Shown here: piece after piece, positions 1,717 through 55,203 of the stretch | How the letters are laid out: the number at the start of each line of letters is the position of its first letter | Position numbering within the stretch: position 1 is the stretch's first letter | Assembly (NCBI GenBank): GCA_023667315.1 | Contig: JAMPAI010000005.1 | Coordinates: forward strand, 110,341-174,340 | DNA length: 64,000 nucleotides | From: Ruminococcus flavefaciens | GTDB taxonomy: Bacteria; Bacteroidota; Bacteroidia; Bacteroidales; P3 | Direction: 5' to 3' | Made by a program: the position numbers and the translations under genes | Notes under the pieces: model-generated | The model's input: the letters and a program-made list of their open reading frames with translations, nothing else | Databases searched by the model: none | What the model was told of the DNA's origin: nothing

Positions 1717-2739
1717 CTACTTAATCAGGAAGGTAAACTTGTCGAAGTTTTTAAGCGCGATGCCCGTACCGCGGGCCACGGCGCGCAAGGGGTCTTCCGC
1801 CAGATGCACGGGCAGTTTGGTTTTGGCCGCCAAACGCTTGTCCAATCCGCGCAGGAGCGAACCGCCGCCCGCCAGATAGATACCCGTCTTGAAAATATCG
1901 GCCGACAGTTCGGGAGGCGTCATTTCCAAGGCATTGAGCACCGCCGCCTCGATCTTGAGGATCGAACGGTCCAACGCCTGGGCAATCTCAGCGTAATTCA
2001 CCACGATTTCCTTGGGAATGCCGGTAAGCATATCGCGACCCTGAACGGCGAAGTCTTCGGGAGGCGTGTCCAATTCGGGAAGCGCGGCCCCCACCTCGAT
2101 CTTGATGCGTTCGGAAGTATAGTCGCCGATGCTGATGTTGTGGCGCTTGCGCATGTATTCCTTGATATCCTGGTTGAAATCGTCGCCGGCGATACGGATC
2201 GACTTGTTGCTTACGATGCCGCCCAGCGCGATGACCGCGATTTCGCTGGTACCGCCACCGATGTCCACCACCATGTTGCCGTGGGGTTCAAGCACGTTGA
2301 GGCCGATACCTATGGCGGCCGCCATAGGTTCGTGAATCAGCCGCACCTCGCGGGCGCCGGCCTGTTCGGCCGAATCCCTTACGGCACGTTCTTCCACCTC
2401 GGTGATGCCGGAGGGAATACAGATAACCATCTTGAGCGCGGGCGGAAACACCGACTTGGGCGCGGGAATTTTCTTGATCAGCTCGCGCATCAGGCTTTCG
2501 GTGGCCTGGAAGTCGGCGATCACCCCGTCTTTCATGGGGCGTACGGTGCGGATGTTGTCGGGCGTCTTGCCATGCATCATCATGGCGTATTTCCCTACGG
2601 CAAGCACCTTGCCGCTGTTGCGTTCCAGGGCGATGACCGAAGGCTCGTCCACCACCACTTTATCGTTGTATATGATAATCGTATTGGCCGTTCCGAGGTC
2701 AATCGCGATTTCTCGATTCATGAATGAAAAAAGGCCCAT
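1717..2739 (-). CDS. mreB: Cell shape-determining actin-like ATPase MreB
   Basis: A 340-residue actin-family ATPase. The phosphate-1 loop is IAIDLGTANT (residues about 11-20). The phosphate-2 motif is VVDIGGGTSEIAV (about 157-169), and the adenosine motif is IYLAGGGSLLRGLDKRL (about 287-303). It forms membrane-bound filaments that position the elongasome. The start MGLFSF was kept because this amphipathic N-terminus is typical of MreB; a second ATG lies six codons in. It is the first gene of mreBCD and has a complete two-part promoter upstream. Confidence 0.98.
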   Translation of the reverse strand: MGLFSFMNREIAIDLGTANTIIIYNDKVVVDEPSVIALERNSGKVLAVGKYAMMMHGKTPDNIRTVRPMKDGVIADFQATESLMRELIKKIPAPKSVFPPALKMVICIPSGITEVEERAVRDSAEQAGAREVRLIHEPMAAAIGIGLNVLEPHGNMVVDIGGGTSEIAVIALGGIVSNKSIRIAGDDFNQDIKEYMRKRHNISIGDYTSERIKIEVGAALPELDTPPEDFAVQGRDMLTGIPKEIVVNYAEIAQALDRSILKIEAAVLNALEMTPPELSADIFKTGIYLAGGGSLLRGLDKRLAAKTKLPVHLAEDPLRAVARGTGIALKNFDKFTFLIK

Positions 2740-2811
2740 TTCTCTTGTAACTATGTGATTATGTGTTGTATTTTAGCAAAACTCGCTCTACTAAGCGAAA
2801 AATACAACTGC

Positions 2812-2843
2812 CAAAAGTAATTATTTTGTTGCTTTCTTACAAA
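2812..2843 (-). promoter_or_regulatory. Promoter of the mreBCD operon
   Basis: On the minus strand there is TTTG (2840-2843) and TACTTTTG (2812-2819) separated by 20 bases, matching the Bacteroidota -33/-7 layout. Transcription would start near 2805, leaving a leader of about 65 bases before mreB. Confidence 0.7.
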
Positions 2844-2899
2844 ACAAAATCGGGCTATTATCCACAGAATGATGTTAAAAAGTGACGCCTCCGCCGTTA

Positions 2900-2931
2900 T
2901 TTGGCAGCGCAAGGCAGAAACATTAACTTTG
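2900..2931 (+). promoter_or_regulatory. Promoter of cca-miaA; fixes the cca start
   Basis: TTTG (2900-2903) and TAACTTTG (2924-2931) are spaced 20 bases apart. Transcription should start near 2938, so the in-frame TTG at 2901 cannot be the translation start, while the ATG at 2949 can. The resulting leader is very short, about 10 bases. Confidence 0.7.
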
Positions 2932-2948
2932 CGCTACTGGCATTTATC

Positions 2949-4388
2949 ATGAACCTGAAAGAAAAACTCACCCATCCCGTTTTCGGAATCATCCAAAAGG
3001 TGGCCGACCGCAAAAAGCGACAAGTGTTCGTGGTGGGCGGCTTCGTGCGCGACCTGCTGCTGAACCGGCATTCGGCCGACGTGGACTGCGTGGTGATGGG
3101 AAACGGCATCGACCTTTGCCGGGAGATCTGCGCGGAAATCGAAAAAACGTACAAGACGACCGTCGATTTACAGGAATTCGGGCAATTCGGAACCTGCAAG
3201 TTCGGATTCGACGGCCTGGAAATCGAGTTCGTGGGCGCCCGCAGGGAATGTTACCGCCCCGGTTCGCGCAAGCCCACGGTGGAGGAAGGCACGATGGAGG
3301 AAGACCGGATGCGGCGCGACTTCAGCATAAACGCCATGGCGCTCTCGCTCAACAAAAAGACGTTCGGCGAGCTGTCCGACCCTTTCAATGGCGTGGAAGA
3401 CCTGCAGAACCAACAGATACGCTCCCACCGCGACCCGGACCAGAGTTTCGAGGAAGACCCCCTGCGCATGCTGCGCGCCATCCGCTTCGCCTCCCAGCTG
3501 TTTTTCGACATCGAGGCGGAGACCTTCGCGGCCATCATACGCCAAAAGGAGCACGTGCGGGAACTCTCGGCCGAACGCATCACCGAAGAACTCAACAAGA
3601 TCATCCTCTCGCCCAAACCCTCCTACGGCTTCAAGCTGCTGGACGCCGCGGGCATCCTCGAGATAATCTTTCCCGAATTCTGCGCCTTGAAAGGCGTGGA
3701 AGTGCGCAACAAGAAGGCGCATAAAGACAATTTCGAACACACCCTGGAAGTGCTCGACCACGTGGCCTACGCCGACGGAGGGGGGAACCTCTGGCTGCGG
3801 TGGGCGGCGCTGCTGCACGACATCGCCAAGCCCAGGACAAAACGTTTCGAGGAACCGCGCGGATGGACGTTCCACGGACACGAGTTCGTAGGCGGCAAGA
3901 TGGTACCGGGCATTTTCCGCAGGTTCAAGCTGCCGATGGACGAGAACATGCGCTTCGTAAAGAAGATGGTGGAACTGCACCTGCGCCCCATCATCCTGGC
4001 CGAAGACATCGTGACCGATTCGGCGGTGCGCCGCCTGCTGTTCGAGGCCGGCGAGGACATCGATAGCCTGATGACGCTGGCGCGCGCCGACATCACCTCC
4101 AAGAACCGCGAGAAGGTGCAGCGTTACCTCAACAATTTCACGATCGTGGAACGCAAGCTCAAGGAACTGGAGGAAAAGGACCGCATCCGCAACTTCCAGC
4201 CTCCCGTTTCGGGCAGCGACATCATGGAATACTATAACCTGCCGCCCTGCGCGGAAATCGGCATCATAAAGACCCGCATCAAGGACGCCATCCTGGACGG
4301 CGCAATCGAAAACGACCGCCAGCAGGCATGGAACCTCATGCTCGAGATAGGCCAAGAACTCGGTTTGAAATGTCCGCAAAAATCCTGA
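2949..4388 (+). CDS. cca: CCA tRNA nucleotidyltransferase with HD domain
   Basis: A 479-residue polymerase-beta-superfamily enzyme that adds or repairs the 3' CCA end of tRNA. The nucleotidyltransferase head shows the GG motif in VVGGFVRDLLL followed by the metal-binding DVDCVV, then RRDFSINAMAL and DPLRMLRAIRFASQL. The C-terminal half carries an HD-type phosphohydrolase domain (FEHTLEVLDHV, then ALLHDIAKP), as in bacterial poly(A) polymerase/CCA enzymes. The start at 2949 is chosen because a promoter overlaps the upstream TTG. The stop overlaps the start of miaA by 19 bases, so the two tRNA-processing genes form a coupled pair. A poly(A) polymerase role cannot be excluded from sequence alone. 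Confidence 0.94.
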   Translation: MNLKEKLTHPVFGIIQKVADRKKRQVFVVGGFVRDLLLNRHSADVDCVVMGNGIDLCREICAEIEKTYKTTVDLQEFGQFGTCKFGFDGLEIEFVGARRECYRPGSRKPTVEEGTMEEDRMRRDFSINAMALSLNKKTFGELSDPFNGVEDLQNQQIRSHRDPDQSFEEDPLRMLRAIRFASQLFFDIEAETFAAIIRQKEHVRELSAERITEELNKIILSPKPSYGFKLLDAAGILEIIFPEFCALKGVEVRNKKAHKDNFEHTLEVLDHVAYADGGGNLWLRWAALLHDIAKPRTKRFEEPRGWTFHGHEFVGGKMVPGIFRRFKLPMDENMRFVKKMVELHLRPIILAEDIVTDSAVRRLLFEAGEDIDSLMTLARADITSKNREKVQRYLNNFTIVERKLKELEEKDRIRNFQPPVSGSDIMEYYNLPPCAEIGIIKTRIKDAILDGAIENDRQQAWNLMLEIGQELGLKCPQKS

Positions 4389-5221
4389 AAGTATTGGAAG
4401 GACCCACCGCCTCGGGCAAGACGGCGCTGGCCATCGAATGGGCGTTGAAGGAAAACACCGAGATCGTCTCGGCCGACTCCCGGCAGTTCTACCGCGAGCT
4501 GAACATAGGCGTGGCGCGGCCTTCGCCCGAAGAACTGGCCGCCGTTCCGCATCATTTCATCGCCAACAAGAGCATCTTCCACTACTACAGTGTATCGCAC
4601 TACGAACAGGAAGCCCTGGCCTTGCTCGACCGACTCTTTGCGCGCCACGACACGGTAATCATGGCCGGCGGTTCCGGCCTGTACGTGAACGCGGTCTGCC
4701 ACGGCATCGACGAACTGCCCGACCCCGCTCCCGAACTGCGGCAGCAACTAAAGGAACAGGAGGTGCGCGAGGGTTTGGAATCCTTGCAGGAACTGCTCAA
4801 AAAACTGGATCCCGTCTTTTACGAAAAGGTGGATTTACATAATCCGGTACGCCTGCGCCGTGCCTTGGAAGTGTGCATCACCACCGGCAAGCCGTACTCG
4901 TCCTTGCGCACGGCAACGTCCAAGCCAAGGCCCTTTGCGATTGAACGCTACGTGCTGACCCGCCCCAAGGAAGAACTGCACGATCGTATCGAAAAACGCA
5001 CCGACCTCATGATGGAGGCGGGCTTGCTCAACGAAGCCAAGACCCTATACCCGCACCGCGAACTGAACGCGCTGCAGACGGTGGGCTACCGCGAGCTGTT
5101 CGCCTACCTCGACGGCAAGATCAGCCTCGAGCAGGCCGTTACCGATATAAAGACCAACACCCGCCGCTACGCCAAGCGGCAGATGACGTGGCTGCGGCGG
5201 CAGGATGCCGTATGGTTGTAA
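4370..5221 (+). CDS. miaA: tRNA dimethylallyltransferase
   Basis: A 283-residue enzyme that transfers the dimethylallyl group to adenosine 37 of tRNAs reading UNN codons. Visible motifs are the P-loop GPTASGKT (residues 10-17), DSRQFYRELNIGVARPS, PHHFI, the catalytic-region MAGGSGLYVNAV, QTVGYRELF and the C-terminal TRRYAKRQMTWLRR. The ATG at 4370 is preferred over one at 4328, since the P-loop normally lies close to the N-terminus. It overlaps the cca stop. An AT-rich island begins directly behind its stop codon, so this 3' end marks an insertion boundary. Confidence 0.97.
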   Translation: MSAKILKVLEGPTASGKTALAIEWALKENTEIVSADSRQFYRELNIGVARPSPEELAAVPHHFIANKSIFHYYSVSHYEQEALALLDRLFARHDTVIMAGGSGLYVNAVCHGIDELPDPAPELRQQLKEQEVREGLESLQELLKKLDPVFYEKVDLHNPVRLRRALEVCITTGKPYSSLRTATSKPRPFAIERYVLTRPKEELHDRIEKRTDLMMEAGLLNEAKTLYPHRELNALQTVGYRELFAYLDGKISLEQAVTDIKTNTRRYAKRQMTWLRRQDAVWL

Positions 5222-39879: not shown

Positions 39880-42800
39880 CTATTGCTTTTTCGCGCGGGC
39901 ATCGATACGCATGTCCCGTCTTACGGTAAACGTATATTCGGGATCGGTGGAAAGCGGCGTGTCCGAACCTTCCTCGAACCAGCCCAGAAACTCGTATCCG
40001 TCACGAACCTCCACGCTCAGTTCCGCCTCATCGCCTTGATAGAAGGATCCCGAACCGTGCAAGGTCTTCAATCCTTCGGGCGTGGAGCTCGACAACTTTA
40101 CATAGCAGGGTTCCGGCATAAAGTGCGCCACCACCTGCGAAGCCTGCATCCTTTCCGTCTCGATTTCCGCCCCTGTGCCGAGAATGCTGTCGTTCCTCGT
40201 CCAATACTTCAGGTAATGGTTTTCTTCGGGAAGGGCCTGCAGGGTAACGGTCGACGACGTGGCCGAATCTTCCTTCACCTCGATCTCGCCGCGCCCGCCC
40301 ATATTGCTGATGGGGGAAACGGGATAGATGTCTTCCCCGAACACGGCGGTCAGTTCCAGCGGGGCGCGGACGCGGAACACGAGGCTGTCTTCCCCGCTGA
40401 AGACCCTGCCGTTCCGGTACCAGGCCGCAAAACGCCGCCCCGGATCGGGAACGGCCGCCAGCCGGACGCTGTCCCCATGCCCGTATTCGCCCCCGCCGGA
40501 CACTTTTCCTCCGCCCTCTTCCCACAGTTCCACCCTATGGCGGATTCCGTTCCATTCGGCATACAGCACCGTGTTTCCGGAAACCCGGAGGCTAAAGTCC
40601 GGATCGGACGAGACGGTCTCACCCCTTTCATTCCTCCATGCCGAAAAGACATACCCCTCCGGGCAGATGTCCGTACGGATGTTCGCCTCGCTGCCGAAGG
40701 CATACTCGCCCGCCCCGTGCAACGCGACATCGATCCCCCGCGACTCCAGCCGCAGGCGGAACACGTCGGGTTCGAAGACGGCCTCCAACGTCCTGTCCGA
40801 CCGCATCGCCAGCGATATCTCCGCATCGCGGCCTATCTCCACGCCGTACTCTTTCCATGCCGCGAAATGATGTCCGGGGGCGGCCTGCGCCTCCGCACGG
40901 GCGGTTCTCCCGTACTCGTATAATCCATCGCCGCGCACCGTCCCCCCGCCTTGCGCCTTGACCCGCAGGGTGCGCAGAGCCGGTTTGAAGAAGGCATGCA
41001 GGGTATCGGATCCACCCACAGGATGGCCGTAACTTCCGTTTTCCGACAGGGTGTCGCGCCCGTCGGCCGACGCACTCCAATAGGCGAACGCCAGGCTGTC
41101 GTTCCATGCGAACGCCTCCATGGCGGCCTGCGTGCCGTAGGCGTACCGGCCCGTGCCGAGAGCCTGCCCCTGCCGCACGTCCGCCGGCAATGCGTAAACC
41201 ATATAGTCCTCAGGCAGGAACACGGCCCTTATTTCCATGGCCGAATCCACCCGAAAAGTGCATTCGGGGCTGTACGAGATCACCTCGTCGCCGCTCATGT
41301 AGGCGTGGAAGCGATGGTTCTCCCCGGCCTCGGCCTTTATTTCCGCCCACCGGCCGTACTTATAGCCACCCTGCCCCCGCACGCTGCCGGCGGCGGGAGG
41401 CTCCACCGACACCGAAAGCGGATAGACCACCGTGTCGAACACCGCCGTGACCGAGCATCCCCCCTCGGGGAAGAAGGTGTGCTCCTCGTCTTGCCATTCC
41501 TCGGATTCCCCCGACACATCCTCGTGCCGCCACATCCTGAACCTCATGCCTCTGGCGGGAACGGCACGGAAACGTATGCTGTCCTCGAAAGGCACGCTCA
41601 CCTCACCCTCCAGCCGCATGCCGCCGTAGCGCGCCGTGTCGCCGTACACCGTGCCTCCGAGGGGCGGCTCCACCGAGATGCGGGCGGTTACCGGCAGGGG
41701 CTCGAAATCAGCGAAAACGTCCATGGAGTCGGTAACGATGAAAGTCCATGTGTGCTGGCGGCTCAGCATGGAGTCTTTCCCGTCGTACCAGCCGGTGAAA
41801 TGATAGTTTGCGTTGTGCCCGATGGTGAGGGTGCATGTGGAGAGGTATTCGTAACTGCCGCCGCCCGTCATCCAACCCCTCTCCGGCCTGCGCGACACGC
41901 CGTTGATCTTGAGGGACAGGGGTTTGAACACGGCCTTGAAGTTCGTGTCCGAACGGGTGACGAACGTCAGGGCGGGATCGTCGCCGACCCTGTCCCCGTT
42001 CCCGTCTTCCCAATGGGAAAAGCCGTAGCCGTGGGCGGGATGCGCCGTGGCGCGGGCGGCCGAATCGTAATAGACCTCGCCGCAGCGGACCCGTCCCGCA
42101 TCGTCCGGCCAGACGGCGAAGGACGGATAGAGCCTCTTGGGGCGCATGACCGCCGTAAGCGTGCTTTCCTCAAAGACATCATGCAGGTAAGGGTTGAGCC
42201 GGGAGAGGGTGTCGCCCTTGCCGTCCACCCAGGCCGCCACCTCGTAGCCGGTCTTGGCATACACGTACACGTTGGCGTTGTAGGCGTAGCGGTACATGCC
42301 CTGTCCGAGGCATGAGTCCGCCCTGGCGGTATCGTCGGCCCTCACCGACACGAGGAAGGTCTTTTCCCTGAACTTCGCCGTAAGGTAGCGGTCTTCCCGC
42401 AGGTTTTCAAGGGTAAAGTCCAAGGCGGGGCTGAACAGTGTGTCGGCCTCGTACCAGCCCATGAATTCATAGCCCTCGAACGCCTCCACACGCACCCGCG
42501 CCGTTTCGTCCTCCCTGTAACGTCCCGCCCCCTCGGCCTCGCCCACCCCCAAGGGTGACACGAACAGGCTCACCGCGTGGCGCAGGGGCTCGAAACGGGC
42601 GTACAGCACGGTGTCGCGCCATACGGGGAAATCCTCCTGCGGATAGGCGCTGCCTGCCATCCCGTCCCCTCCGGCGAACCAGCCGGCAAACTCGCTGCCC
42701 GGTGCCGGGACGGCCTCTATGCGCGCGTATTCCATATAGTCGAACGATGCCGAGGTCTGCCCTGCGGCGGGTTCACCCACGAACACGCTTCCGAAACCCT

Positions 42801-45609
42801 CCCCGGCCGGCTTCAGCTCCACCCTGAACCTTTGGGGAGCGAACAGCGCCGTAAGGACCGTGTCGCCCTCTATCCCGTCAATCCGCAGGGTGGCCTGCGC
42901 CACGGTGTCGCCCTGCGGTGTGCGCCAGCCCTCGAAGCGGTAGCCCTCGAAAGCCTCCGCCGCAATCGTTACCGGGCTGTGCCACTCGTAGGTGCCTGCG
43001 CCGCTTGTCTTCCCGTAGGTGTCGTTCGTGGCGTGGAGCGCGACATGCGAGCGGGCGTGGCTGAAGACGGCCATCACCCGGCAGGAATCCTCCACTTCCA
43101 GAAGGTAGTCCGGCTCCGTGCCGAGGCTGTCGCCGTCTATCACCCAGTAGCGCAGTTCCGCCCCCGGGGCGGGAAGGGCCGTCAGTCCGAGTTCGCTGCC
43201 GTATCCGTAGAGTCCCCCGGAGAGGTTCACGCCCCCCAGGATCCCGTCGTTCACCGATATGTCCACCCTGTACAGGTTGGGTTCGCAGACCAGTCTCACC
43301 GATGTGTCGTTCAACACCTTCAGCACGAGCGTGTCCTGTGTCCCTATCGTTTTCCGTCCGCTCTCCCAGCGGGCAACGTGATGCCCCTTGTCGGGAAGGG
43401 CAACCAGCCTCACCTCCGTGCCGTAGGGATAGGAGCCTGCACCCTCCGCGCCTCCGTTCTCGGCGGCGAGCGTAAGGGCATAGTCCAGGATGCCGAAAAC
43501 GGCCTCCGCCGAATAATCGGCATCCATATGCGATTTCCGCGTGAGGTAGTAGGGATTGGCAGCCGTATCGCGCTGCGGCATCCCGTCCCTCTCCACTTTC
43601 CAGTACCGGAAACCGAAGCCTCTGGCAGGCACGGCCCGCAGCGACACTTCCGTCAGGTCGAACGCGCTGTAGGAGCTGTCGGCCTTGCGCTGCCCGCACT
43701 GCAGGGCGCTCCCTCCGACCGGATCGTTCACCGACAGGTGCACCCTGTGGAAAGTCTCTTCGAAGACGGCGCGGTAACTGCCTCCGCCGCTTATGTTCTC
43801 TATCCGCAGCGGATTCTCCGTCCCCACCATGCCGCCGTCCGCGTCTTCCCAATGCAGGAACGTGCTGTAGCGCGGGTCGTTCGACTCGGCGCGGGCCGTC
43901 ACCGTACCGAAATGCTTGTAGGTGCCGCTTCCGCTCACCTCGCCCAATTTGGCCTCGGGCCAGGCAGAGAACTCGAAATCGTAGGGAATGCTGTCGGTGC
44001 GCACGTAGATGGTTCCGCCGCGCATCACGTCCCGGTAGTCGTAGGAAGCCTGGCGGGAGATCACCGTGCCGCCCAGTTCAAAGCCCATGAAAAGATAGCC
44101 CTCGTCTATATCCGCGCGCAGCCTGGCCGTCTGCCCGTGCAGGAGGGTTATCTCCTGCCTGCGGATTCCCGTCGTGTCGTCGAAATAGGCGTACGCCCCC
44201 ACCGCCTCGGCGAAGCGGAGCGTGTAGGTGGTGTCGAAAACCGCCGTGAGGTCGCGGTCGGAGGTGATGCTGAACGTGTAGTCCGCCTCGGTGGAGACCG
44301 TCTTTCCGTTCTCCTCCCAGCGGAGGAAGCGGCAGTCGGGTCCGGCCTCGGCATGGGCGGACTGCTGGCTGTTGTGCCGGCACGGAACGCGGTTCTTGGC
44401 CTCCGTGCTGCCGTATCGGCCGGCCGGGTTTACGGTGAGGTACCACCGGCTGTATATGCTCAGGTGGATGATGTTGCTCTGCAGGTCATAATTCGACGCC
44501 TCTATGCGGATGCGGTACTTGTCGGAATCGGGCAGGTCGGCCGGAAGGTCTATCCTCGCGCGCCCGGTGTGCCTTATGTTGTCGCCGCCGTCCACCTGCA
44601 CGGAAGTGAGCAGTCCGGCCTTTATGAAGTTTCCGTCCTCGTCGGAAAGGTAGAACCTGAGTTCGTTCTGCGCGGCAGGGTCGATGGGGTCTGCCGTGCC
44701 CGAATAGAAGGTGTAGGGAAGCTCGAAGGAAAGCCCGCTGCTTCCGTGGTGCGCCATCTCCAGATATTCGGCCGTATCGATGCTGAGGACGGGGTTATAG
44801 ATGAATTCCACGTCGTCCACCCAGAGTTCGTCGCCCTCCACCACCTCGCGGAAGTTGTTGCCCGCCGTAAAACTGAGCAACAGGTAGGCCGGCGTTTCAT
44901 CGCTCTCGTAGGCAATGGGAACGCTGTAGCGTACCCAGCCGCCATTGCCTCTGGTTATCTTCTGATTGGCCGACCCGATGGGGGTGGTTGATTGCATTGA
45001 TGGACTTATAATAGCCGTGGGAATTGAACTGTTGCTTTTCTTGACGCCATTCGGGTTGCAGTCGGCAAAATATTCATTTCGGTGCAGGTAAAGCGTCATA
45101 TCGGCCGGACGTTCGCTTCTTGACCATTTTGCCCAGAACACAACAGAATCGGGATGACCGGTAAACTCCCACCGTTTGGAACCGTTACCGATATTTGTAT
45201 AAATAAATGAATTTGCATTATCCTTGGAGTCATAATAATAAAGCGTTCCCGTAGTCAAAGTTCCCATCTGTTCGTAGGAAGTAGTGCCGAAAGGAACTTT
45301 AAAGCGATACCAACTGGATTGGGTAACCTTGATATACACCGAGTAAACTCCCGGACTTCCCGGACGGACTTCATTGGACGACCATACCGACTGATTCCGC
45401 TTCTCACGGCTTGGATTATTTCCCACCTCATAGCACGAACTCGAATTCCAGCCCCAGGGCTCCGGGTCATCCCATACCTCGAAATCGAAATTAGGGGCCT
45501 GCGGGGTGTTGTATTTGGTGGTAACCTGAGCCTGAACGCGGGATACAAAGAAGAGGTTCGCCAACGCGCACAGTATCAAGACAGGCAGAAGTTTAAGCGT
45601 CTTTTTCAT
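39880..45609 (-). CDS. Giant InlB-type repeat protein, paralogue lacking a T9SS sorting domain
   Basis: A 1909-residue exported protein. It has a signal peptide (1-27, ending RVQAQ), a PCMD-like N-terminal domain (about 35-275; ends in LWVDDVEFIYNPVLSIDTA), an Ig-like segment, then about 20 divergent InlB-type repeats of 70-90 residues up to the end. It stops inside or directly after a repeat (YTFTVRRDMRIDARAKKQ) with no YPNP-type sorting domain, unlike its downstream partner and the related 320-residue protein. It may be periplasmic, may rely on the partner for export, or may have lost its tail. It heads the two-gene unit. The repeats are Tyr/Gly/Trp-rich with RGD-free loops; ligand unknown. 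Confidence 0.88.
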   Translation of the reverse strand: MKKTLKLLPVLILCALANLFFVSRVQAQVTTKYNTPQAPNFDFEVWDDPEPWGWNSSSCYEVGNNPSREKRNQSVWSSNEVRPGSPGVYSVYIKVTQSSWYRFKVPFGTTSYEQMGTLTTGTLYYYDSKDNANSFIYTNIGNGSKRWEFTGHPDSVVFWAKWSRSERPADMTLYLHRNEYFADCNPNGVKKSNSSIPTAIISPSMQSTTPIGSANQKITRGNGGWVRYSVPIAYESDETPAYLLLSFTAGNNFREVVEGDELWVDDVEFIYNPVLSIDTAEYLEMAHHGSSGLSFELPYTFYSGTADPIDPAAQNELRFYLSDEDGNFIKAGLLTSVQVDGGDNIRHTGRARIDLPADLPDSDKYRIRIEASNYDLQSNIIHLSIYSRWYLTVNPAGRYGSTEAKNRVPCRHNSQQSAHAEAGPDCRFLRWEENGKTVSTEADYTFSITSDRDLTAVFDTTYTLRFAEAVGAYAYFDDTTGIRRQEITLLHGQTARLRADIDEGYLFMGFELGGTVISRQASYDYRDVMRGGTIYVRTDSIPYDFEFSAWPEAKLGEVSGSGTYKHFGTVTARAESNDPRYSTFLHWEDADGGMVGTENPLRIENISGGGSYRAVFEETFHRVHLSVNDPVGGSALQCGQRKADSSYSAFDLTEVSLRAVPARGFGFRYWKVERDGMPQRDTAANPYYLTRKSHMDADYSAEAVFGILDYALTLAAENGGAEGAGSYPYGTEVRLVALPDKGHHVARWESGRKTIGTQDTLVLKVLNDTSVRLVCEPNLYRVDISVNDGILGGVNLSGGLYGYGSELGLTALPAPGAELRYWVIDGDSLGTEPDYLLEVEDSCRVMAVFSHARSHVALHATNDTYGKTSGAGTYEWHSPVTIAAEAFEGYRFEGWRTPQGDTVAQATLRIDGIEGDTVLTALFAPQRFRVELKPAGEGFGSVFVGEPAAGQTSASFDYMEYARIEAVPAPGSEFAGWFAGGDGMAGSAYPQEDFPVWRDTVLYARFEPLRHAVSLFVSPLGVGEAEGAGRYREDETARVRVEAFEGYEFMGWYEADTLFSPALDFTLENLREDRYLTAKFREKTFLVSVRADDTARADSCLGQGMYRYAYNANVYVYAKTGYEVAAWVDGKGDTLSRLNPYLHDVFEESTLTAVMRPKRLYPSFAVWPDDAGRVRCGEVYYDSAARATAHPAHGYGFSHWEDGNGDRVGDDPALTFVTRSDTNFKAVFKPLSLKINGVSRRPERGWMTGGGSYEYLSTCTLTIGHNANYHFTGWYDGKDSMLSRQHTWTFIVTDSMDVFADFEPLPVTARISVEPPLGGTVYGDTARYGGMRLEGEVSVPFEDSIRFRAVPARGMRFRMWRHEDVSGESEEWQDEEHTFFPEGGCSVTAVFDTVVYPLSVSVEPPAAGSVRGQGGYKYGRWAEIKAEAGENHRFHAYMSGDEVISYSPECTFRVDSAMEIRAVFLPEDYMVYALPADVRQGQALGTGRYAYGTQAAMEAFAWNDSLAFAYWSASADGRDTLSENGSYGHPVGGSDTLHAFFKPALRTLRVKAQGGGTVRGDGLYEYGRTARAEAQAAPGHHFAAWKEYGVEIGRDAEISLAMRSDRTLEAVFEPDVFRLRLESRGIDVALHGAGEYAFGSEANIRTDICPEGYVFSAWRNERGETVSSDPDFSLRVSGNTVLYAEWNGIRHRVELWEEGGGKVSGGGEYGHGDSVRLAAVPDPGRRFAAWYRNGRVFSGEDSLVFRVRAPLELTAVFGEDIYPVSPISNMGGRGEIEVKEDSATSSTVTLQALPEENHYLKYWTRNDSILGTGAEIETERMQASQVVAHFMPEPCYVKLSSSTPEGLKTLHGSGSFYQGDEAELSVEVRDGYEFLGWFEEGSDTPLSTDPEYTFTVRRDMRIDARAKKQ

Positions 45610-45833: not shown

Positions 45834-45863
45834 GATCATTTTCGTGAGCTCACGAAAATGATC
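45834..45863. repeat. Palindromic repeat copy 1 (perfect 30-base palindrome)
   Basis: The arms GATCATTTTCGTGAG and its exact complement give a perfect palindrome with centre GAGCTC. It is followed by the tail CTGATATACTGACAATTA shared with copies 3 and 6. Confidence 0.95.
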
Positions 45864-45956
45864 ACGATGCCTGATATACTGACAATTAGTTCAAAACCCG
45901 CCTATCCCTCCCATCCCCTCTTTTCTACTGCCACGAACTATCCCATTACTGGAATT

Positions 45957-45984
45957 ATCATTTTCGTGGGCTCACGAAAATGAT
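45957..45984. repeat. Palindromic repeat copy 2
   Basis: The arms ATCATTTTCGTG/CACGAAAATGAT surround centre GGCT. Its tail CTTACAATTA type is shared with copy 5 (subtype b). Confidence 0.93.
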
Positions 45985-46078
45985 CACAGCAATTGATTTT
46001 CTTACAATTAGCTATTTCAAATCACATACAGGGAATCCGTCTTGCCTATAAACCTTAAACGACAACACGGCCGCCTAC

Positions 46079-46108
46079 GATCATTTTCGTGACCTCACGA
46101 AAATGATC
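46079..46108. repeat. Palindromic repeat copy 3
   Basis: The arms GATCATTTTCGTGA/TCACGAAAATGATC surround a CC centre, the same centre as the copy inside dinD. It has a subtype a tail and lies 122 bases after copy 2. Confidence 0.93.
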
Positions 46109-46158
46109 ACAATATCTGATATACTGACAATTACGATACATCAAAAGGAGCAAACAAA

Positions 46159-47061
46159 TCACCTTTTATTCGGCAATTTGGAAGACGTTTGCTCTATCTT
46201 CCTTTCATTTGCAGCAACACGGCGTTCCACCTTCTTGATGTCTTCAGCTGCAGGCAGTTCCTCCGGTTTAATGCCTCTATGTCCCAACATCTGCCGCACA
46301 CTCTTGTTGTTTTGCATATGTTCCTTTGTAATCGAAATTTCTCCTTGCAGATCCTTTTGTCCTACATTGTAGTTCGTCATTTCGGTAGCAAGGTTTTTAG
46401 CCGCAATCGTAAGTGTCGGGAGAAAATCGGCAAGAGGTCTGTTAGCCTTTACACCCAGCTTCTGTTTCATCCCTTCGGTAGATATGCCTCCAAAAAGAAC
46501 GGAATCTCCCTTAGACCTAATCCTGCCAAAACCTCGTTCATCAACACCGCGTTCGTAGATATTTTGAGAAAGCTGTTTTTCAGAAGACCGAAGTCTATCC
46601 CGTGCCTCCAGTCTCGCAATATGCTGTAAATGCTCGGCAATCAACTCCGCCTTACGTGTCTGCAATGCAAAATACCCCTGAGCAAACGCGATCTCCTCTT
46701 TCTTGGGATCCCCGTTTTGGGCTATAAGGTAACAGGCAAAACGGGTAAGTACGAAATCATCCACCGCACGCTGCCCTCCCTTACCGATAGATATCATTTT
46801 CGTGACCTCACGAAAATGATCATCAACATTGACTCCCTGCATATTACAAGAATCCATCGCTCTATTGATCGCCACTTGAAAATTTTCCCAACGGGCATAC
46901 CCCAACAGTACCTGCAATTCCCTCGCGAACCACACCTCCATATCCTTATTTTCATCATCCTTTGTGATATGCGTAATCTTATTGAATGTAGCCGTATGCT
47001 GCTTTATCCTATGTATATCCATTTGCCCAATATTTTGATTAGTGCCCCAGGTCTCCGACAT
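46159..47061 (-). CDS. dinD: DinD-like DNA damage-inducible protein D (BRO-N type)
   Basis: A 300-residue soluble protein matching E. coli DinD through its length. It shows VWFARELQVLLGYARWENF (BRO-N-type start), VNVDDHFREVTKMI, FVLTRFACYLIAQNGDPKKE, FAQGYFALQTRKAEL, then LFGGISTEGMKQKLG and a charged C-terminus (about 250-300). E. coli DinD is SOS-induced and reported to disrupt RecA filaments; whether this one does is unknown. Codons for DHFREVTKMI form a palindrome nearly identical to five copies outside the gene. Two 180-base direct repeats flank the gene, which splits a group of PCMD-domain genes. Low GC content and these repeats suggest an acquired unit. No transposase or integrase is nearby. 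Confidence 0.87.
   Translation of the reverse strand: MSETWGTNQNIGQMDIHRIKQHTATFNKITHITKDDENKDMEVWFARELQVLLGYARWENFQVAINRAMDSCNMQGVNVDDHFREVTKMISIGKGGQRAVDDFVLTRFACYLIAQNGDPKKEEIAFAQGYFALQTRKAELIAEHLQHIARLEARDRLRSSEKQLSQNIYERGVDERGFGRIRSKGDSVLFGGISTEGMKQKLGVKANRPLADFLPTLTIAAKNLATEMTNYNVGQKDLQGEISITKEHMQNNKSVRQMLGHRGIKPEELPAAEDIKKVERRVAANERKIEQTSSKLPNKR
46793..46820. repeat. Palindromic repeat copy 4, inside the dinD coding sequence
   Basis: The same arms ATCATTTTCGTG/CACGAAAATGAT surround centre ACCT, here read in frame as part of DHFREVTKMI. The shared tail is diverged on this copy. Confidence 0.93.
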
Positions 47062-47092
47062 CTGCCGGCTTATCCTCCCTAAAGCATTGGTA

Positions 47093-47140
47093 CAAAGGTA
47101 CGGTATCTATCCATACGCAAATGTTAAAAAAAACTTAACA
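47093..47140 (-). promoter_or_regulatory. dinD promoter with upstream inverted repeat
   Basis: The minus strand shows TACCTTTG (47093-47100), an exact -7 element 31 bases before the dinD start, with a TTTG (47118-47121) 17 bases upstream. Just beyond lies the inverted repeat TGTTAA/TTAACA with a seven-base spacer (47122-47140), a candidate repressor site such as LexA. The link to LexA is only a suggestion. Confidence 0.5.
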
Positions 47141-47145
47141 GATTT

Positions 47146-47173
47146 ATCATTTTCGTGGGCTCACGAAAATGAT
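47146..47173. repeat. Palindromic repeat copy 5
   Basis: Same arms and GGCT centre as copy 2, with a subtype b tail. Confidence 0.93.
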
Positions 47174-47268
47174 CACGACAACTGATTTTCTTACAATTAG
47201 CAATTAAAAATCACATACAGGGAATCCGTCTTGCCCATAAACCTTAAAACGACAATACTGTCGGCCAC

Positions 47269-47298
47269 GATCATTTTCGTGAGCTCACGAAAATGATC
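47269..47298. repeat. Palindromic repeat copy 6 (perfect 30-base palindrome)
   Basis: Identical to copy 1, with centre GAGCTC and a subtype a tail, and 123 bases after copy 5. Confidence 0.95.
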
Positions 47299-47338
47299 AC
47301 GATACCTGATATACTGACAATTACACCCAATACACCTC

Positions 47339-55060: not shown

Positions 55061-55203
55061 AAAATACTCCACCGAGAGCCGAAAACAAGTTTACTTGTTT
55101 TCGGCTCTCAGTTTATTCGTATTTTTGGGCTCCGCCGAAAATACTCCACCTCGGCCAAAAACAAGTGAACTTGTTTTCGGCTCTCGGTTTATTCGTATTT
55201 TTG
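55061..55203. repeat. Tandem promoter/palindrome repeat before the aminopeptidase gene
   Basis: Two copies (55061-55127 and 55138-55203) each run from AAAATACTCC to GTATTTTTG. Each contains GAAAACAAGT-type arms facing ACTTGTTTTCGGCTCTC. In copy 1 the arms are a perfect 17-base inverted repeat (55074-55109). Each copy ends in a full TATTTTTG promoter element (55120-55127 and 55196-55203), so the gene appears to have two promoters, each with its own operator-like palindrome. Confidence 0.85.

Follow-up and report, generated by a model that had tools for sequence, protein, structure and literature searches.

An inverted repeat in the BRO-N codons of dinD genes and matching sites in phage genomes

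The dinD locus and its palindromes

In E. coli K-12, dinD (b3645) is induced by DNA damage, and to our knowledge its cellular role is still unclear. The window, which is the whole stretch of DNA analysed here (64,000 nucleotides of a Bacteroidales contig), contains a gene for a 300-residue protein with a BRO-N domain (Pfam residues 39-125) and a C-terminal helical part on its minus strand (46159..47061). The preliminary description of this DNA, made from the sequence alone, had called this gene dinD. This assignment is confirmed by a match of residues 17-296 to NCBIfam NF008573, the DinD family of BRO-N proteins that includes E. coli b3645 (E 9.4e-106; 353.4 bits against a curated cut-off of 242 bits for the whole protein), so that the window gene is a clear member of this family. 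Bro-N is its sole Pfam match (E 2.3e-9).

Six exact copies of a 28-bp inverted repeat, ATCATTTTCGTG(N4)CACGAAAATGAT, are detected in the window, where 0.00 are expected from shuffled sequences. One of them (46793..46820) is located in dinD, where all 13 pairs of its arms match and its codons specify DHFREVTKMI (residues 81-90). The other five are extragenic. Dyads a1 (45835..45862), b1 (45957..45984) and a2 (46080..46107, 51 bp downstream of the dinD stop codon) are located on one side of the gene, and dyads b2 (47146..47173) and a3 (47270..47297, the outer right copy) are located 84 and 208 bp upstream of the dinD start codon respectively. The tail is CTGATATACTGACAATT in subtype a and [TC]TGATTTTCTTACAATT in subtype b, and the order in the window is a-b-a-[dinD]-b-a. 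The six near-identical palindromes and the alternation of their subtypes are therefore as described previously. The start-to-start steps of the exact 28-mers are 122, 123, 713, 353 and 124 bases. The regular step of 123, 122 and 123 bases reported previously, for which slightly different ends were used, stands with the values of 122, 123 and 124.

The left b-a block (45952..46134, plus strand) and the right b-a block (47141..47324, plus strand) are direct repeats with 90.8% identity, and the regularity of the window array is in part a duplication that covers only these two blocks. The a1-b1 spacer has no comparable repeat match inside the window, so that duplication accounts for the step of ~123 bases only partly. 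Helical phasing, which had been suggested from this step, is possible: steps of 121-126 bases recur in three arrays, those of the window, of a congener (G008) and of L121, but other dinD loci have steps of 55, 112 and 151 bases. L121 is a 5.9-kb contig of a Desulfovibrionaceae MAG, on which dinD is not detected. Its array (2133-4888) consists of 11 dyads of the CGT type, to which the window dyads also belong; two of them are imperfect, and the last ten are arranged at steps of 122-126 bp, one step being double.

When up to two mismatches in the 20 fixed bases are allowed, no dyads beyond these six are detected in the whole assembly (2.93 Mb, 88 contigs). The six copies form one cluster and are not scattered over the genome, unlike a generic repetitive element, which had been put forward as the outcome that would speak against a specific role. 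Six other genomes contain one copy each, and up to nine copies are present in one genome (G071), such that many scattered copies per genome, as expected for a mobile repeat, are not found. It is improbable in our estimation that the dyad is a mobile palindromic repeat (REP- or MITE-like) that originated from dinD and whose stand-alone copies are functionless in phages. The array units are weakly similar to DinD at the protein level just upstream of the dyad, and some bacterial copies keep ~25 dinD codons, as such an origin predicts, but comparison of the array units with the dinD coding sequence at the nucleotide level reveals an overlap with the gene end only.

The congener G008 has the same six-copy layout, with steps of 124, 352, 713, 122 and 121 bases. 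When 13 genomes of the genus, including that of the window, are searched for the right-hand flank, 11 match, and the dinD block is present in the window genome and G008 among them. In the nine other congeners the left-hand gene is located on the same fetched stretch, without dinD and without a dinD-like dyad. Because the two flanking genes are near each other without dinD in these nine congeners, dinD and its arrays represent a block of ~1.5 kb, which extends approximately from 45834 to 47325 and has an undefined right border. The left flank of two congeners matches up to 45833, the base preceding the first palindrome (31 and 47 bases; weak matches, E 0.002), and dyad a1 is the probable left border of the block. 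According to this comparison, a CGT-type dinD with five extra cognate sites would have been gained in the window lineage or lost in the nine congeners. One of the nine (G002) carries, at another place in its genome, a different dinD whose dyad is of the GCT type. A layout tied to this locus is not supported: the in-gene copy is a general feature, as described below, on which the flanking arrays elaborate locally.

At 55078-55181 the window has two more dyads that are nearly perfect, GCCGAAAACAAGTTTACTTGTTTTCGGC and, 76 bp further on, a variant of it; both are unlike the dinD dyad. An open frame of 1909 codons, repetitive-looking by eye, adjoins the dinD block on the minus strand (39880-45609).

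The in-gene dyad among dinD genes

When named bacterial and archaeal genomes are scanned with the pattern CATTTTCGTG(N4)CACGAAAATG, at least 114 stretches are found to contain it, with titles from many phyla and many MAGs, and 89 of the 127 places listed are inside DinD-homologous stretches. A plasmid search gives seven records, two of which are dinD. Because a set fetched by the palindrome cannot prove generality, dinD genes fetched by protein were used instead. Of the first 30 Bacteroidales loci fetched in this way, the majority contain an inverted repeat in the corresponding codons, though often with a different sequence; the types are CGT..ACG, GCT..AGC, CCT..AGG, GTT..AAC and GCC..GGC. 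A 28-bp inverted repeat at these codons, which specify HFxxVxKM of the BRO-N domain, is present in most of the dinD genes examined from Bacteroidales, Pseudomonadales, Lachnospirales and E. coli K-12. In an AlphaFold2 model of the window DinD (mean pLDDT 89.8), the dyad-encoded peptide lies on a beta-hairpin strand of the BRO-N domain (residues 83-92).

The arms match at 12 or more of 13 pairs in 49 of 71 dinD contexts, whereas 0.5 are expected when synonymous codons are randomised, and at nine or more in 65. The contexts were obtained by protein search (69), by name (K-12) and by the palindrome (G008). Fewer than 12 pairs match in 22 of the 71, the least similar rows (34-40% identity) being counted as misses. 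At other positions of the same contexts, 12 or more pairs match in only one of 7455 windows. When E. coli DinD is used to fetch dinD genes of Pseudomonadales and Lachnospirales, at least 12 pairs match in 20 of 31, whereas 0.23 are expected. Two of these genes, both with 13/13, come from genomes entered via the palindrome.

The two arms change together. In 56 unique 28-mers 85.2% of positions are paired, as compared with 66.1% (maximum 69.5%) in 1000 shuffles, in which kinship is not corrected for, and 19 extra pair types are found against a shuffle maximum of 13. Pairs are changed on both sides at 10 of the 13 positions, which is equalled in two of 1000 shuffles, again without correction for kinship. 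The residues at motif positions 3 and 6 also change together: reverse-complement codons are available for them in 53 of the 71 contexts, while the shuffled mean is 18.9 and the maximum 32. At three of the Pseudomonadales and Lachnospirales loci (L585, L587 and L595) even the His and Met codons have changed jointly, to Asp and Ile, and the match of the arms is kept. These paired changes suggest that both arms are read together.

Paired changes preserve the stem of an RNA hairpin as well. Such a hairpin might be a control element of the dinD mRNA or a built-in RNA antitoxin, with RNA decoys in phages, and the arrays of the window and L121, which consist of repeated units with one stem each, are consistent with it. 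In all 173 dinD contexts, mismatch cells of the G-U kind (53) are about as numerous as those of the A-C kind (50), which this explanation can accommodate. In the less biased set of 56 unique 28-mers, however, A-C cells (41) exceed G-U cells (25), and this excess disfavours a hairpin in the mRNA, because a stem would tolerate G-U over A-C. The sequence of the stem is conserved and the loop is free, which also argues against a hairpin. We consider it unlikely that the dyad acts as RNA.

A general property of BRO-N genes is rejected, since no dinD-like dyad is detected in the 21 of 30 fetched Bro-N loci that lack DinD similarity. One of them (L559) has an unrelated dyad elsewhere in the locus, and in another (L547) only a run of N is detected. 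Outside these 30, a stand-alone CGT site is located ~157 bp from a non-DinD-like Bro-N gene (G058 contig 41, L011:1272-1299), which hints that other Bro-N proteins may use such sites. Another genome (G044) has a CGT site, and dinD is absent from it at E 1e-20.

The dyad of E. coli K-12 dinD (nt 176-203) is ACCATTTCGAGGAGATCCTCGATATGGT, with 12 of 13 pairs. dinD matches are found in 4668 of 5426 E. coli genomes, at least 80% of the K-12 gene being covered in 1526, and the match begins only at nt 247 in 13 of 25 evenly spread rows. E. coli genomes have no match to the CGT-type query. Five alleles of a second kind, which have the same length, are 55-72% identical to K-12 per 60-nt window in the first 240 nt and 90-100% identical in the remainder of the gene, the differences stopping at nt 246. 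The nearest 80 bp upstream is 97-100% alike between these alleles and K-12. The swapped segment spans nt ~33-246, with the adjoining DNA alike. The second allele, which is apparently commoner, has a dyad with 10 of 13 pairs. Limitation of the swap to the BRO-N part with the dyad indicates that these two move as one block.

Where extra dyads close to dinD were noticed in passing, they belong to the type of the gene itself at 10 of 13 loci (the window, G008, G071, G140, L090, L105, L109, L118, L309 and L326; in L109 the gene copy carries one change) and to another type at L081, L023/L282 and L573. At six of the ten (the window, G008, L105, L109, L309 and L326) own-type copies are located upstream of dinD, as would be the case if the dyad were an autoregulatory dinD operator that phages have borrowed as an SOS-responsive operator for their own genes. 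The dinD gene of Streptococcus phage Javan290, located beside an integrase and a repressor, is also consistent with an operator. We nevertheless regard this explanation as rather doubtful in view of the arrangement of the viral sites described below.

Sites in viral genomes

When viral contigs are scanned, the CGT type is found in at least 120 stretches, the CCT type in 49, the GCT type in 32 and the symmetric K-12 type in five, while two permuted control palindromes give one match and none. Among the matches listed, 106 of the 120 CGT places are outside DinD-homologous stretches. Only one of 49 CCT places and one of 33 GCT places are inside dinD, and all others are outside. The CGT, GCT and CCT sets show the same conservation at positions that the scans left free: position -2 is A in 88-96% of the sites, position -1 is Y in 90-96% and position 10 is R in 94-100% (94, 92 and 94% respectively in the CGT set). 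This conservation is not expected for functionless copies of a mobile repeat.

Of 168 distinct viral sites 146 are placeable, and 121 of these are intergenic, though open reading frames occupy 83% of the bases. The orientation of the genes around the sites is close to background: divergent gaps contain 15.7% of the sites and represent 16.9% of the intergenic length. Neither this lack of enrichment nor the unrelated genes that the sites adjoin is expected for a borrowed operator, and the near-background frequency of the sites in both convergent and divergent gaps argues against an RNA decoy. Because the phage sites are found in any gene arrangement and match the dinD types, a genome-wide decoy or mark suits them more than an operator.

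The genes that flank CGT viral sites are mixed and include those for terminase, portal, endolysin and repressor; integrases and recombinases account for only ~10 of 94. An attachment site is rejected on this basis, since integrases are a minority. More broadly, the dyad might be a site of site-specific recombination or integration, by which phages enter dinD, much as dif-like elements make use of XerCD. Two half-sites flanking a free 2-bp centre are compatible with this function, as are the arbitrarily placed and usually single site in each viral stretch fetched, the several dinD remnants that end at or near the dyad and the probable left border of the window block at a dyad. In contrast, the centres of the viral sites are varied, integrases do not regularly adjoin them, and a prophage-split dinD with a dyad at both ends was not noticed among the loci viewed. 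The differing types kept by dinD clades are also left unexplained. Integration at the dyad is therefore, in our judgement, a poor candidate.

The type of the site differs between closely similar phage loci. One locus has CGT (L207), GCT (L351, L357 and L370) or CCT (L487 and L509), a second has CGT (L261) or GCT (L348), and a third has the K-12 type (L378) or CCT (L493). At a fourth locus, located after one terminase gene, the site is CGT, GTT (L424) or a tandem of CCT and CGT (L417 and L426). Both arms switch in these pairs, and the flanks are 79-95% identical over the longer matched side. Because the identity of the flanks is only 79-95%, the switches may have occurred via recombination of a short segment. 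A relaxed scan detects adjacent sites of differing types in L036, L180, L193, L236 and L350. In a strict scan, five perfect second dyads are found near 128 viral sites, as compared with two in 297 control windows, and none of those near the viral sites is of the dinD kind. Neither the switches of both arms at four loci nor the adjacent sites of different types are readily explained by a mobile repeat.

In a terminase (TerL) family, of which the best 80 of 139 relatives were compared, a site directly behind the stop codon is recognisable in 24 and decayed in at least four; in the rest of these 80 no site is seen, and two of them have fewer than 40 bases downstream. Gain and decay of sites after one gene are also predicted by a mobile repeat. 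Absence or decay of the site in most of the 80 relatives suggests that any benefit to the phage is not constant. Several single-arm changes in this family are uncompensated, unlike what is expected for an RNA stem. Among viral sites in which both variable positions are asymmetric, one wobble-tolerant strand is consistent with 20 and inconsistent with nine, which leans towards RNA.

In stand-alone viral sites the outer (-1/+1) and inner (10/13) variable positions often differ between the arms, and the excess of asymmetry at the outer pair is unlike that pair in dinD. Imperfect CGT-like sites are located over the annotated start of a hypothetical gene in two P. gingivalis phages (L296:3667-3690 and L297:2902-2928). 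Matches of Campylobacter phages A18a and A11a were dropped; the A18a stretch (L482, an unverified record) reads as E. coli dinD and is therefore probably contamination. A Microvirus match with an imperfect dyad was set aside, as were other weak phage matches.

A candidate reader of the dyad

A dimeric protein on duplex DNA fits these observations best, as far as sequence comparison allows. The preliminary description had proposed a binding site for an oligomeric DNA-binding protein, plausibly DinD. The first part of this proposal is supported, in that the dyad looks like the site of a dimeric protein and is present in clade-specific types in most dinD genes. For the second part, the gene carries the dyad and the domain that would read it moves with the dyad, so that DinD is the natural candidate reader; the own-type extra copies at 10 of 13 loci are consistent with this role, as is the DNA-binding protein that represents its best fold match. 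On balance we lean towards the view that the dyad is recognised by a DNA-binding dimer, most likely of DinD, and that phages display it to engage or titrate DinD. The site would have two half-sites of 13 bp each, which read AYCATTTT-xyz-GR in the common types and are separated by 2 free bases, and would be written into the codons of the BRO-N domain of DinD itself. A dimeric reader, most likely DinD, would bind it as duplex DNA, and reader domain and site, being one piece of DNA, would evolve and move together. The in-gene and flanking copies of the host would serve autoregulation or self-marking, and phages would keep a matching site to engage or titrate the DinD of the host, as a counter-measure in host-phage conflict.

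The best solved-fold match of DinD by Foldseek is DdrC of Deinococcus radiodurans (7udi, 8u0g and 7qvb; E 1.3e-6 to 6.5e-5), with low TM-scores of 0.27-0.34 and 0.38-0.46 (0.34/0.46 for the top match at E 1.3e-6, with an rmsd of 10.8 over 247 columns). Excerpts of PMC5436757 describe DdrC as a damage-induced DNA-binding protein that exists as monomer and dimer in solution and binds DNA without sequence specificity. The TM-scores set this match apart from a clear DdrC-like fold, and the reported lack of specificity is a point against DinD as the reader of a specific site. The contexts with fewer than 12 pairs, the 10/13 allele of E. coli, the site without dinD in G044, the non-DinD Bro-N neighbour in G058 and the other-type copies at L081, L023/L282 and L573 also count against it.

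A part of PMC4129442 cites E. coli DinD for inhibiting RecA-mediated strand exchange, which is a further point against this reading. In a pneumococcal island, deletion of the dinD-like and regulatory genes has a smaller effect than deletion of the whole island, according to a part of PMC10602874. The portions of these two articles and of PMC3121763 that were available do not mention the dinD dyad, and an in-gene dyad with phage-borne cognates is not found in the open-access literature searched, so far as the accessible text of these DinD descriptions and other sources extends.

Several known systems resemble parts of this arrangement. Phages carry decoys of host immunity, such as ToxI-like repeats against ToxN and solitary CRISPR repeats, which are likewise small copies of the cis element of a host system. 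The dinD element differs from them in being a dyad within a coding sequence and in occurring in several types, and its inhibition of DinD is putative. In type I specificity subunits (HsdS), the recognition part is exchanged as a block between alleles, similarly to the BRO-N part of dinD, and a PADLOC model named Specificity_I (PDLC03083) matches DinD. However, Bro-N is the only Pfam match of the window DinD, and its site would be inside the codons of the recognition domain. Phage antirepressors (BRO-N/KilA-N) have the candidate reader domain in common with DinD, and BFVD matches of DinD include antirepressors and regulatory proteins, but the 21 non-DinD Bro-N loci have no dinD-like in-gene dyad.

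It is conceivable, though we hold it only tentatively, that DinD represents a family of self-describing recognition proteins, in which the DNA for one strand of the BRO-N reading domain is also the target, such that a change of specificity rewrites protein and site at once, that phages of many sorts counter-sign with interchangeable copies of a host type, and that this family is an unrecognised and widespread system of defence or self-non-self discrimination. A covarying in-frame dyad and switchable phage copies provide dinD with a testable ligand and a testable phage conflict. If this interpretation is correct, a recognition code would be common to bacteria of several phyla and their viruses, phage-host matches might be readable from a few bases, and dinD would be a rare example of a recognition site imposing paired residue changes on the protein with which it overlaps.

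By PADLOC, DinD falls in PDC-S13 (E 1.4e-113), which is a candidate defence family only. Among 52 genes adjacent to dinD at 27 loci, only a few have matches in type I restriction families. Three loci (L066, L103 and L106) have short forms of dinD, in which the N-terminal part to approximately the dyad is followed by the C-terminal tail and the middle is missing; these could be functional mini-DinDs or products of decay.
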